From assembly GCA_030725745.1 (NCBI GenBank), contig JANRFH010000052.1:92324-145759 (forward strand): DNA of 53,436 nucleotides. The letters run 5' to 3'. The notes under the pieces were generated by a model. That model was not told the DNA's origin. It did no database searches and was given only the letters and a program-made list of their open reading frames with translations. Origin of the DNA: Akkermansiaceae bacterium. GTDB lineage: Bacteria; Verrucomicrobiota; Verrucomicrobiia; Verrucomicrobiales; Akkermansiaceae. Position 1 is the first letter of the stretch. Every line of letters starts with the position of its first letter. Both the position numbers and the translations under genes were made by a program. Below, in pieces: positions 8,963-12,725 of this stretch.

Positions 8963-10696
8963 TCAGGGCTCGCGCTCGGCGAGGAACGAGCGCCGGCAAA
9001 GCTCGGCGTATTTTCCCTCCCGAGCGAGTAACTCGTTGTGAGTGCCTTCTTCAATGACTCCGCCCTTTTCCATGACGTAGATGCGATCCGCATTCTGGAT
9101 GGTGGAAAGGCGGTGTGCGATTACGAAGGCAGTGCGGTTTTCCATGAGGCGATCAAGCGCGGCTTGAATTTGGCTTTCCGTTTCCGAATCTACGGATGCG
9201 GTAGCTTCATCTAGCAGCAGGATAGGTGCGTTTTTGAGCAAGGCACGAGCGATGGACAGGCGTTGTTTTTCGCCACCGGAAAGCTTCACGCCGCGTTCGC
9301 CAACGTTGGTATCGAGTTTATCAGGAAGATTTCGGACAAAGGATGCGCCGTTCGCAGCTTCGAGTGCCAACCACATTTCGTCATCTGTGGCATCGCGTTT
9401 TGCGAGGGTAAGGTTTTCTCTAACAGAGCCGTTGAAGAGGAATGCCTCTTGTGTGACGTAGGCGAGTTTCTCGCGGAGGGAGCTCTTCGAGAGCGCGGAA
9501 ATATCTGTGCCGTCGATGCTGATAGTTCCAGAGTCGTGTTCGTAGAAACGGTTGAGGAGAGAAAGGACGGTAGATTTCCCCGCGCCGGTGGAGCCGACAA
9601 GGGCGATGGTGTGTCCTGGTGGAGCGTCTAGGTTGAGTTTGTTGAGAGTAGGTTGCGATCCGTATGCAAAAGACACGTTATCGAAGCGAACGTGAGCTGT
9701 GATTTCTGGGGGGAGTGATTCGCCATCAGAGGCGTTGGGTTCGTTTTCTGAATCCATGATTTCAAACACACGGTCGGCGGCCGCGCGTGAGGAGAAGATC
9801 ATTTGGTTGAGCTGCCGGAGCTTTCCTACAGGTTCGTAGAATAGTCCGAGGAGTAGAAAGAAGAATACGAGGTCGCCGCCGCTCATTCGCCCCTCAATTA
9901 GGGCGGACGCACCGAATCCCAAGACAAGGACGTATCCTAGCATGCTTGCAAAGGACATGGATGGGTTGTAAATGGCCCACCATTTCATGAGGTGGAGAGT
10001 TGCCTTGCGAATCTCGTGGGAGAGGCGGTTGAAATTGGTGTGTTCCTCGTCTTCGGCGGCGTATGATTTGATCTGACGTATGCCGGCGATGTTGTCGTGC
10101 AGTAGGGAGTTCAGGGAGGAAGACGCATTTCGCTCAGCCTTGTGGCGGTGGCGTGCGTCTTTCGAGTAGATCCACGCGCCTATAAGGAGGATCGGGATGG
10201 GGAGTGTCGCCCAGAGAGCGACTTGCCAATCGGTGAGATACATCACGAGACCCACGGCGATGAGCTGGATGAACGCGACTAAACCAAGCTCGATACCATC
10301 GATGAGCACGCGCTCCATAGATGTTACATCCTCGACGACGCGCGTCATAATATCCCCCGTGCGACGTGAATCGAACCAGTTCAGCGGCAGACGTTGTATC
10401 TTCTGATAGAGGTCGGAGCGTATATCGAACACGACATTTTGCTCGAAGTGATTGTTAACGAAGATACGGGCACAGTTGAGGCCGTCTTTAAGGAAATAGG
10501 AGGCCGTAGCGAGGAATATCCAGAACAGGAGGTCATCGTGGCGAGCTGGGTTTGGGACGATATCATCAATGACAATCTGAGTGATTTTCGGGAAGAAGAT
10601 CACCGAGACCGCCATGAGGGTTGCGCAGAAAAACTGTGCGGTTGCTAGGCCGGGGTAGCGCTTAAGGTAGGAAAAGACTCTTAGGTTCGATTTCAT
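8963..10696 (-). CDS. ABC exporter, MsbA/lipid-flippase-like (fused membrane and ATPase domains)
   Basis: A 577-residue half-transporter that would act as a homodimer in the inner membrane. The N-terminal part has six membrane helices with the coupling-helix pattern LNWFDSRRTGDIMTRVVEDV. The ATPase domain has Walker A GSTGAGKST (about 368-376), the signature LSGGEKQR (472-479), Walker B ILLLDEA (492-498) and the H-loop AHRLST. It resembles lipid A and multidrug exporters, but the substrate cannot be decided from sequence. The ATG at 10696 is preferred; a GTG 18 bp upstream is also possible. Confidence 0.9.
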   Translation of the reverse strand: MKSNLRVFSYLKRYPGLATAQFFCATLMAVSVIFFPKITQIVIDDIVPNPARHDDLLFWIFLATASYFLKDGLNCARIFVNNHFEQNVVFDIRSDLYQKIQRLPLNWFDSRRTGDIMTRVVEDVTSMERVLIDGIELGLVAFIQLIAVGLVMYLTDWQVALWATLPIPILLIGAWIYSKDARHRHKAERNASSSLNSLLHDNIAGIRQIKSYAAEDEEHTNFNRLSHEIRKATLHLMKWWAIYNPSMSFASMLGYVLVLGFGASALIEGRMSGGDLVFFFLLLGLFYEPVGKLRQLNQMIFSSRAAADRVFEIMDSENEPNASDGESLPPEITAHVRFDNVSFAYGSQPTLNKLNLDAPPGHTIALVGSTGAGKSTVLSLLNRFYEHDSGTISIDGTDISALSKSSLREKLAYVTQEAFLFNGSVRENLTLAKRDATDDEMWLALEAANGASFVRNLPDKLDTNVGERGVKLSGGEKQRLSIARALLKNAPILLLDEATASVDSETESQIQAALDRLMENRTAFVIAHRLSTIQNADRIYVMEKGGVIEEGTHNELLAREGKYAELCRRSFLAEREP

Positions 10697-10854
10697 GTGA
10701 GGAGGGTCGCGCACGCTTGACGTGGGAATTGGCTTTGTAAAGACAAGGATCGTCGTTCATAAAGATTTGAATTTAAGGAACTTTTGGATTGCCGCCCCTC
10801 ATAGAGAAGCCATAGGCTCCAACCACACCCGGAATCCGGATATCCAAAAACCCC

Positions 10855-11652
10855 ATGGCCAACATCTTAGGTATTTTCACAGCTCTAATTCTATGCGTCG
10901 CAGCTTTTGTGGCGGTAAAAAACAAAGCAAGTTTCGAAGCTGAAATTGCAGAACGCGATTCACAGCAGAGAAGTCTCGAGCGCAGCCAGAAAAGGCTCGA
11001 AGGACTTCAAGCAGATCTTGTCCGTTTGCCAAAGGAGCGTGCTGAGATCGATGGCCAGACAGCCGTGAAGAACGAAGAGAAGGCTGGGTTGGAAGCCGCC
11101 AACGACAGCCTCAAGAGCGACATTGAATCCAAGACCTCAAAAATTGAGGACAACAATACGGAGCTCAACGATATCCGTGAAAAAGTTGCCAAGGTTGGTG
11201 ATATCGAAGACCTCGCCGACAAGATGAAGGCAATGGGTGCAGAGCGTGAGGAACTCACACAGAATATCTCAAGCACAGAAGCAAACCTCGCAAACCTTAC
11301 CGCAACCAATATCTCAATCCAAGCGGATGCGAAGAACCGCAAGGAGGAGCTTGATACCCTCGCCAAAGGGCAGTCGTTGCCATCGCTCAATACCCGTATT
11401 CTTAGAATCTACTCGACCTGGGGCTTCGTGCTACTCGCCGATGGTGATAACGCTGGTGTAACCGCAAACTCCACACTCGATGTAGTTCGTGGTGGTGAAG
11501 TGATTGCTAAACTGCTTGTAACTGCGGTTGAAAGTCGTGCTGCATCCGCCAGCATCGTTCCGGGTTCCATTGCTGAAGATGTGACTCTCATGACAGGAGA
11601 TCGCGTCGTGGCTTCCAAAGACACCGACACGAAGAAGACTGCCTCCAACTAA
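10855..11652 (+). CDS. Membrane-anchored coiled-coil protein, paralogue 1
   Basis: 265 residues. A single N-terminal hydrophobic segment (ILGIFTALILCVAAFVAV) serves as anchor or signal. A long heptad-rich coiled coil follows from about 25 to 170, rich in Glu, Lys and Asp. The C-terminal domain of about 85 residues contains STWGFVLLADGDNAGVTANSTLDV and ends in a Lys/Thr tail. The same layout and the same WGF-x(5)-G-x-N-x-G pattern occur in the next gene, so the two are paralogues. The family is not recognised. The topology suggests a periplasmic coiled coil with a small beta-domain at the tip. Confidence 0.75.
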   Translation: MANILGIFTALILCVAAFVAVKNKASFEAEIAERDSQQRSLERSQKRLEGLQADLVRLPKERAEIDGQTAVKNEEKAGLEAANDSLKSDIESKTSKIEDNNTELNDIREKVAKVGDIEDLADKMKAMGAEREELTQNISSTEANLANLTATNISIQADAKNRKEELDTLAKGQSLPSLNTRILRIYSTWGFVLLADGDNAGVTANSTLDVVRGGEVIAKLLVTAVESRAASASIVPGSIAEDVTLMTGDRVVASKDTDTKKTASN

Positions 11653-11677
11653 GCTATTTCCAAAAAACTCTCAACCC

Positions 11678-12487
11678 ATGAAATTCATTTTTCCCATTCT
11701 GGCTATTCTTGTCTGCGGCGGCGCCACTTACTTCAGCCTCGACCACTCCTCGAAGTTTGAGGCAGTTCAGGAGCAGCGTCTCGTTGCGATCTCTACGAAC
11801 AAGTCTGTCACGGCAAGCGCCGATAAGGCTGACGTTGATAAAGCCAACGAAGAACAGCTTCTCGAGAACTCCAAAAAGGAACTCGCCCTAGCAAACAGCT
11901 CCGTAGACATCCTCCAAGCGGATAATAACCAGCTGAAGAACGATGTAGCTAAGCTCGATGTGCGTATCGCAGATCAGGACAAGGAATTTGCCCAGCTCAA
12001 TGCCGCGATTGAGGAAGTCAAAGCGATCCTTGCCGGACTAGGGCAGGATGTGACTATCGAGACACTCCCCGATATTGTGAACGAGATCAGCGATGATATT
12101 ATCGCGAAGAAATCGAAGCTCGAAGAACTCAACACACTCGTTGAGGGCGCTGAGAAAAGGCTGGCATCAAGCAGAGACGAAGTGTCACGACTCGTGGATC
12201 GTAAATCCTCCCGCAGTGAGCGCATTAGGCGCAACGCCATGTCTGCCAGGGTCACTGCAGTGAATCAGGACTGGGGCTTCATTGTCATCGGCGCCGGATC
12301 AAACTCAGGTTTCACACCTCAGACCTCACTCCTTGTGAAACGCGACGGAAAACTTATTGGTCGTGTTACACCATCTTCCATTGAGAAGACCCAAACGATT
12401 GCCAACATCGAACTCGATTCACTGGCATCAGGTGTCCGCATCCAGACAGGTGATACCGTGATCCTTGCTAAGCCAGCTGGGAACTGA
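11678..12487 (+). CDS. Membrane-anchored coiled-coil protein, paralogue 2
   Basis: 269 residues. It has an N-terminal signal or anchor (FIFPILAILVCGGATYFSL), then a coiled coil from about 25 to 185, then a compact C-terminal domain with QDWGFIVIGAGSNSGFTPQTSLLVKRDGK. Alignment by eye with the upstream gene shows the shared order hydrophobic anchor, coiled coil, WGF...GxNxG, and a final segment ending in TGD-x-V. Only 25 bp separate the genes, so they are probably co-transcribed and their products may form a hetero-oligomer. No enzymatic motif is visible. Confidence 0.75.
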   Translation: MKFIFPILAILVCGGATYFSLDHSSKFEAVQEQRLVAISTNKSVTASADKADVDKANEEQLLENSKKELALANSSVDILQADNNQLKNDVAKLDVRIADQDKEFAQLNAAIEEVKAILAGLGQDVTIETLPDIVNEISDDIIAKKSKLEELNTLVEGAEKRLASSRDEVSRLVDRKSSRSERIRRNAMSARVTAVNQDWGFIVIGAGSNSGFTPQTSLLVKRDGKLIGRVTPSSIEKTQTIANIELDSLASGVRIQTGDTVILAKPAGN

Positions 12488-12542
12488 GAGTCATCCCGAC
12501 GTAAAACTTGTGTTAACTCCAAAGTTGGGGTCTATTCCAGAC

Positions 12543-12725
12543 ATGAAACGTTACGCACTTTTAGCCGCGCTCGCCTTCTTTCTTCCTTCATGCGCCGACG
12601 AGGAGCAGAGAAAGCCAGTGGGTCCTACTTCTGATAGCAGCCGGATTCCTTGGAATGATCCGGGCTTGTCTCCTCAGGGAGGTGGACAAATGGGCATGCT
12701 TCCTCAAAATCAATACCGCCGTTAG
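12543..12725 (+). CDS. Small predicted lipoprotein
   Basis: 60 residues from the ATG at 12543: MKRYALLAALAFFLPSC, then a hydrophilic Pro/Gly/Gln-rich mature part. LPSC is an imperfect lipobox with Cys17 as the lipidation site. It follows the coiled-coil pair by 55 bp and may belong to the same envelope system. TTGTGT (12508) and TCTATT (12531) at 17-bp spacing would place a transcript start at the ATG, that is, a leaderless mRNA, but this is only a pattern match. The function is unknown. Confidence 0.65.
   Translation: MKRYALLAALAFFLPSCADEEQRKPVGPTSDSSRIPWNDPGLSPQGGGQMGMLPQNQYRR

Follow-up and report, generated by a model that had tools for sequence, protein, structure and literature searches.

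The window considered here is a stretch of 53,436 nucleotides from an Akkermansiaceae bacterium (genome G000, an assembly of 3.42 Mb in 57 contigs; G000:C52:92324-145759). Two intact, adjacent open reading frames, ORF A and ORF B, are arranged in it head to tail with a gap of 25 nt and are followed by the gene of a small lipoprotein. The features are listed below with their basis in brackets.

10855-11652, + strand: ORF A, the upstream paralogue, a membrane-anchored coiled-coil protein with a predicted barrel tip, 265 aa (sequence, A/B alignment, order-wide search, tree)
10858-10917, + strand: A, N-terminal hydrophobic segment, residues ~2-21 (sequence; hydropathy 2.8)
10918-11388, + strand: A, predicted coiled-coil rod, anchor-to-tip distance 160 residues (distance measurement; coiled-coil matches in Pfam/NCBIfam)
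11389-11619, + strand: A, tip domain with WGF-x5-G-x-N-x-G (tip-profile match at G000:C52:103565-103942; alignment with B)
11678-12487, + strand: ORF B, the downstream paralogue, 269 aa (sequence, A/B alignment, class-wide search, tree)
11687-12037, + strand: B, predicted first helix with the anchor, residues 4-120 (AlphaFold2)
12038-12064, + strand: B, predicted helix break, residues 121-129 (AlphaFold2; pLDDT <50 at 121-124)
12065-12235, + strand: B, predicted second helix, residues 130-186 (AlphaFold2)
12242-12466, + strand: B, predicted six-stranded barrel tip, residues 189-263 (AlphaFold2 and structural neighbours)
12543-12725, + strand: small lipoprotein P0003, 60 aa, 44 of them mature, with SRIPWNDP near the C-terminus (sequence, alignment, profile)
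12591-12593, + strand: lipobox cysteine of the lipoprotein, Cys17 (invariant in the alignment of relatives, for which the lipobox was a search criterion)
12648-12656, + strand: lipoprotein tail Pro36-Trp37-Asn38 (alignment of relatives that had been selected for P and N)

The genes flanking this set, named by eye, are a divergent ABC exporter gene on the left and a convergent RlmH gene on the right, so the three genes form a unit of their own. The original prediction of a self-contained envelope unit, in which a pair of paralogues is followed by a lipoprotein gene, is thereby borne out. Further neighbours in the window are ribosomal and division genes (by eye), and the closest named loci belong to Akkermansiaceae, Verrucomicrobiaceae and Luteolibacter. 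The exporter at 8963-10714 is MsbA-like and divergent to A. Among loci of the same family, 11 of 13 have a close relative of it next to A, against 0 of 7 loci of other families. Since the adjacency is confined to the own family, an adaptor role for A/B with this exporter was considered and dropped.

A and B are true paralogues, each with an anchor, a coiled coil and a tip, as had been proposed from the letters of the window. They align over nearly their whole length with 24% identity (E 9e-14, single comparison), and in searches of their own genome they find each other with E 3.1e-10 and 1.9e-9. The C-terminal domain of about 80 residues carries the tip motif WGF-x5-G-x-N-x-G, which reads WGFVLLADGDNAG in A and WGFIVIGAGSNSG in B. 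In a tree of 76 tips, which is based on 140 columns only, leaves 31 of 73 inner branches open and has a bootstrap that is not settled, all 19 A sequences form one clade, all 19 B sequences form another, and A and B together form one (99/96, 99/97, 99/93). This topology traces A and B to a single duplication, placed at the root of the order. The tandem pairs of other classes lie outside the A+B clade; those of family f64 form their own clade (100/99), and those of family f61 fall into two clades whose placement the tree does not resolve. Omitted from the tree were loci L085-L160, the near copies L036, L047 and L065, and a set of divergent genes or third paralogues (L077, L175, L181, L182, L184, L186 and one gene of L043).

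A third tip protein with a short rod (110-117 residues from anchor to tip) is encoded in the own genome (L186:6892-7875, minus strand) and at L181:5411-6136 and L182:5621-6262. In two genomes it adjoins a TlyA-like gene (named by eye). The A proteins of relatives often extend 60-150 residues beyond the tip, e.g. L051:8141-9235 and L054:9240-10253, both with Pro/Ala-rich tails and DPF near the end. B has at most 4 residues beyond the tip across 70 loci.

The AlphaFold2 model of B, computed with 55 relatives, has a mean pLDDT of 86.7 and predicts helices at residues 4-120 and 130-186 and six strands at 189-263. Its pTM is low (0.41), and hence the angle between these parts is not fixed by the model. 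The length of the rod is nearly constant. Over 70 loci, the anchor-to-tip distance of A ranges within 146-186 residues, being 160 in 40 loci, 153 in 11, 159 in 5, and 146 and 167 once each; that of B has a median of 171. Because the end of the anchor was placed at the hydropathy maximum, noise of a few residues is to be expected in these lengths. The two commonest A lengths, 160 and 153, are one heptad apart, and 146 and 167 fit the same series, with 17 of the 70 loci outside it. Where the rest of the class has a single-copy tip gene, the distance is 151-170 residues; in other classes it is 173-206, with two genes at 288 and 303. About 160 helical residues would extend for some 24 nm, which is close to the depth of the periplasm. 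The rod lengths of A and B do not rise together (rho -0.28), and matching of the two lengths as a sign of a mixed coil is thus unsupported.

The tip of B is predicted to be a barrel. Its structural neighbours in VIA are the C-terminal domain of FlgT, 3w1e (Z 10.1, 76 aligned residues, 2.1 A) and 8z5n chain 0, which we take to be FlgT (Z 11.0, 76 aligned, 1.8 A). The N-terminal barrels of F1-ATPase score about the same as FlgT (Z ~10), so the fold is a common one and is not specific to FlgT. According to the model, the tip has the fold of the FlgT C-terminal domain, the MreC barrels and the N-terminal barrels of F1/V1-ATPases. In Foldseek, the best value, E 2.1e-3, was obtained for FlgT and for 9a5z chain B (a YpmB-MreC model), and no match to the tip reached E 0.001.

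In sequence, the likeness to FlgT_C is weak but recurs among the tips. Pfam FlgT_C (PF16538) matches 13 of 39 tip members at E <=1, the best at 1.7e-5, and the window's own tips are not among the 13. A search of the own genome for the family gave no hit at E 1, its cut-off is not reached by the window proteins, and it is absent among the matches listed at E 0.01 for 8 full-length relatives. Membership in FlgT_C was therefore rejected on this cut-off, the predicted model having the barrel fold of that family. MreC (PF04085) matches 7 of 39 tip members (best E 0.0034); the window tip gives E 0.067 and 13.4 bits, below the cut-off of 28. The PDB profile of MreC, 2j5u, matches the tip with E 0.046, and profile comparison of the tip with verrucomicrobial MreC was not significant (probability 4%, E 0.01). 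Identity of A/B with MreC was dropped, since the only PF04085 match in the own genome is a separate true MreC (E 3.7e-36) and both genomes of genus g2 that were searched lack an MreC match. The search covered 23 class genomes and gave an MreC match in 21 of them but in neither g2 genome (G001, G010), although G010 encodes A as well as B.

Among the matches listed, no Pfam or NCBIfam family reaches its cut-off for A, B or the lipoprotein, and coiled-coil names such as CENP-F, SMC and WEMBL were set aside as composition noise. Periplasmic adaptor families of tripartite efflux or of secretion systems, a clear match to the latter of which had been named beforehand as fatal to the idea of a new unit, are absent among the Pfam/NCBIfam matches listed at E <=10 (the best 25 of 27, 28 and 38). 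The view that the proteins belong to no known family thus stands as far as cut-offs are concerned, and it has to be modified for the tip, whose predicted barrel is of the FlgT_C/MreC type. The profile search of the tip suggested for checking it likewise gave a weak FlgT_C likeness for the 13 members, with the window's own tip passing no cut-off.

P0003 has the signal peptide and lipobox cysteine of a bacterial lipoprotein, as seen in the sequence, the pattern and the alignment. Its lipobox, FLPSC, has an unusual Pro at -2; the relatives often read LTSC or LVSC. The lipoprotein is under selection at the protein level: among 18 related genes of 63 codons each, the mean pN was 0.117 and the mean pS 0.713 over 43 mature codons, and pN was the lower of the two in all 153 pairs. 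In 101 lipoproteins the mature part usually has 43-45 residues, and most of them share a PWNxP tail motif, followed in many relatives by W-E-G. The pattern scan for relatives required a lipobox and P[WH]N, and P and N of PWN look invariant for that reason. Counted from P[WH]N in the same 101 proteins, S is found at -3 in 82 and I, L or M at -1 in 97; P stands at +4 in 81; W, G and F at +7 in 47, 39 and 8, respectively; E and Q at +8 in 54 and 40; and G at +9 in 77. The window lipoprotein has SRIPWNDP without the second W. Tail variants outside the pattern are PWS, PWG, PWD, PHS, ISW and GWN.

Residue +2 of the mature lipoprotein is never Asp (0/101) and is Ala in 65 of 101. In E. coli, sorting depends on Asp at +2, a rule that may not hold in Verrucomicrobiota. 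The lack of Asp fits a location in the outer membrane under the E. coli rule, if the rule applies here.

Between B and the lipoprotein gene, Akkermansiaceae relatives contain a terminator-like hairpin, AGCTCCGC..GCTTGCATGC..GCGGAGCTTTTTT (e.g. L104:5811-5879, L131:5817-5896), whose end lies shortly upstream of the start codon of the lipoprotein. For 24 sequences picked by eye for the hairpin, RNAalifold gave 9 pairs, 6 of them with at least one two-sided change that keeps the pair. The hairpin was not found in the window, where 12488-12542 holds a weaker fold only. In the relatives it may be an attenuator setting the ratio of rod to lipoprotein.

A precedes B on the same strand in all of the 20 regions and in 71 of the 76 named loci; each of the remaining 5 has its start less than 190 nt from the end of a contig. 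The lipoprotein gene is linked to the tip genes. A search for a lipobox with P[WH]N on both strands of 135 loci (1,615,069 bases) gave 102 candidates, of which 101 closely follow the 3' end of a tip gene on its own strand, with distances of -28 to 460 nt. Among 130 loci with a tip gene and at least 450 nt downstream of it, 100 carry a candidate lipoprotein. The 30 loci missed by the scan include 17 with a variant lipoprotein or a copy that the pattern overlooked; the other 13 are L041, L043, L044, L132, L157, L159, L170-L172, L181, L182, L184 and L186. Three of these (L181, L182, L186) carry the third kind of tip gene, and no PWN-type lipoprotein was seen behind the tandem pairs of family f64 (L170-L172).

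The lipoprotein profile led to the same arrangement. Its best match lies directly 3' of B, with a median gap of 57 nt, in 103 of the 107 genomes for which both places were listed. This holds for 77 of the 80 of these genomes that lie outside the fetched regions, some of which may be the organisms of named loci in the lipoprotein alignment, the places having been transcribed by hand. The four exceptions are G088, G091 and G221, with B and the lipoprotein on different contigs, and G254, with a gap of 879 nt.

Twenty extra loci were read in which the lipoprotein had been found and B had been missed by the single-sequence search or lay elsewhere. A tip gene is plainly present in four of them (L189, L190, L196, L200) and diverged in a further four, recognized by profile in L191, L199 and L204 and by position only in L193. 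B lies elsewhere in L194, L195 and L205, and L197, L201 and L202 are ambiguous. In the remaining 6 of 20 (L187, L188, L192, L198, L203, L206) the space between the lipoprotein gene and the next gene upstream is too short to hold a rod gene; the lipoprotein can thus exist without an adjacent one. L187 and L188 belong to the single-contig genomes G156 and G164, of 915,884 and 917,278 bases, which have kept the lipoprotein without rod room; its neighbours there (fur, argH, a heptosyltransferase-like gene and ruvC, by eye) are the same as in rod-bearing relatives. The other four loci come from genomes of family f17. A search with the tip profile gave no hit at E 0.001 anywhere in the six genomes (G156, G164, G211, G232, G258, G192), which does not prove that they lack a rod elsewhere, because the same profile also missed the diverged tips of G147 and G262.

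All three proteins are widespread. At E 0.001, matches to A occur in 137 of 141 genomes of the order and matches to B, by single-sequence search, in 142 of 188 genomes of the class; the tip profile, at the same threshold, matches 201 of 288 genomes of the phylum, other classes included. The lipoprotein profile, built from 43 lipoproteins and used in a more sensitive kind of search than that for B, has hits in 182 of the 188 class genomes at E 0.01 and in 166 at 1e-4, the best E of 16 of the 182 lying between these values, where it may be due to chance. In G000 the profile has 5 matches, the best being the window gene. An initial contig scan with the B sequence alone as query gave no match. With these counts, and with a tip of known fold, the earlier opinion that the unit has no recognised homologue does not hold: relatives are present in much of the phylum.

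Anchored rods of nearly fixed length with a head, encoded next to a lipid-anchored tail with a common motif, suggest a bridge. The reading favoured here, with a probability of about 0.42, is that the A/B rods and the lipoprotein form a trans-envelope rod-and-hook bridge between the membranes. A and B would be coiled-coil rods anchored in the inner membrane and spanning the periplasm, with a small beta-barrel head at the end, and following the duplication at the base of the order they would probably form a mixed oligomer. The lipoprotein would probably be held in the outer membrane and have a flexible tail of ~40 residues, the PWNxP motif of which could serve as a hook grasped by the rod head or by an outer-membrane machine. 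Such a bridge would hold a distance or position the outer-membrane machine relative to the inner membrane. Against the bridge are the rod lengths with their rho of -0.28, the lipoprotein kept without room for a rod gene beside it in 6 of 20 loci, the f64 pairs with no such lipoprotein behind them, the location of the lipoprotein elsewhere than B in G088 and G091, and the lack of tail docking. A single AlphaFold chain of B and the lipoprotein, joined by stop readthrough, showed no docking of the tail on the B tip, the tail being disordered (pLDDT 38-49); the lipoprotein part was present in only 15 of 45 rows, which makes this chain a poor docking test. Docking as evidenced by single-chain prediction was dropped. 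The proposed envelope complex accordingly stands as an envelope unit of linked genes, and its single structural contact test was negative.

Persistence of the lipoprotein without rods implies that it may primarily serve some other component of the outer membrane. Because of this and of the negative docking, the bridge is kept close to a somewhat unlikely second reading, an outer-membrane assembly subunit. Here the lipoprotein would be the core, a small subunit of an outer-membrane machine (the LPS translocon or BAM) acting as LptM does on LptD, and A/B would be accessory inner-membrane partners or regulators where present. This agrees with its presence in nearly all class genomes (182 of 188 at E 0.01, 166 at 1e-4) against 142 of 188 for the less sensitively searched B, with its retention at loci that have no room for a rod gene, two of them in 0.9-Mb genomes (G156, G164) and four in f17 genomes, and with a size resembling the ~6 kDa of LptM in the available part of PMC10567701. 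However, P0003 has no Pfam match at E 10, and hence none to PF13627, the family of LptM; moreover, the linkage to the tip gene is very strong, and an independent subunit would not need it. The boldest reading, an unlikely one, makes the lipoprotein an essential factor of outer-membrane assembly, unseen until now, in the whole phylum; A/B would be a length-fixed rod through which it is coupled to the inner membrane, and the whole would be a trans-envelope system that has no equivalent in Proteobacteria.

The same data bear on three less probable explanations. A/B could be an MreC-like cell-wall scaffold, with the head binding a wall enzyme, the coil dimerising and the lipoprotein a linked but separate factor. 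The layout of anchor, coil and barrel is equal, and MreC is among the best neighbours (2j5u, E 0.046; 9a5z chain B, E 2.1e-3); yet the own genome holds a separate true MreC (E 3.7e-36), G010 has A and B while 2 of 2 g2 genomes show no MreC match, and the tip compares with the verrucomicrobial MreC profile at a probability of 4% (E 0.01), which makes a scaffold improbable. Quite improbable is that the genes are conserved neighbours with no common function: lipoproteins without a rod beside them and rods without a lipoprotein behind them both occur, but the linkage persists across otherwise different gene neighbourhoods. A spanin-like pair, perhaps of phage origin, in which the rod meets the lipoprotein within the periplasm and the two are able to fuse membranes or disrupt them, would share the Rz/Rz1 layout given in the available part of PMC6139136 and has weak PHROG matches to Rz-like spanins (E 0.04-0.4). 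These matches rank with coiled-coil and signal-peptide noise, the tree and the spread fit vertical inheritance, the head is a predicted barrel, and no lysis genes were seen alongside by eye, so that such a pair is very improbable. Assignment as a spanin by sequence was dropped, none of the PHROG matches being significant.

The A/B/lipoprotein unit may be a bridge or an assembly aid between two membranes that is described nowhere in the searched literature. No description of the unit was found in that literature, which left most subscription journals outside its reach; the parts are of known kinds, and it is their combination, the motif and the spread that lack a description within that reach. 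Verrucomicrobiota have an outer membrane, but to our knowledge studies of envelope systems peculiar to them are few. The high conservation of the unit, and the retention of its smallest part in genomes of 0.9 Mb, make it a strong candidate for an important role in the envelope. The 'hypothetical proteins' concerned thereby become a testable gene set, and the near-constant length of the rod can serve to test directly what determines periplasmic depth in the phylum. As context, the V. spinosum transposon study lists 100 essential proteins of unknown function in the available part of PMC12283558, and CT421.2 is a PVC-wide protein of unknown function of ~53 to >80 aa (available part of PMC3444138).

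Among known systems, the Rz/Rz1 spanins consist of a type II membrane coiled coil and a short lipoprotein with 40 mature residues (available part of PMC6139136). The A/B unit has the same layout, an inner-membrane coiled coil and a short lipoprotein encoded together. Unlike Rz/Rz1, it is chromosomal and widespread in a phylum and has a predicted barrel head and a PWN tail; no phage lysis cassette was seen around it by eye, and in relatives, too, it is surrounded by other chromosomal genes. LptM (formerly YifL) is, in the part of PMC10567701 available, a very small lipoprotein of ~6 kDa with a short mature part, and P0003 resembles it in both respects. The two differ in that no common family was found, P0003 occurs in another phylum and it is linked to a rod gene. 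The abundant lipoprotein WP_009060351 of Methylacidiphilum fumariolicum, proposed to link the outer membrane and the wall (available part of PMC10260701), is also verrucomicrobial; it differs from P0003 in its 139 aa, its neighbours galT and amyA and its conserved C-terminus of 53 residues, and the main text of that source, in the part available, contains 0 occurrences of 'PWN'. The TolA/TonB-like force transducers in the available part of PMC12204202 gave no match to the unit. FlgT shares the predicted barrel fold of the A/B tip in its C-terminal domain and has other domains where A/B have a long coil. MreC has two barrels. It shares with A/B the layout of N-terminal anchor, coiled coil and beta-barrel, which B shows in its predicted model in that order, together with a weak likeness in sequence; A/B are distinguished from it by one barrel, a long rod and a linked lipoprotein, with a separate MreC in the same genome.
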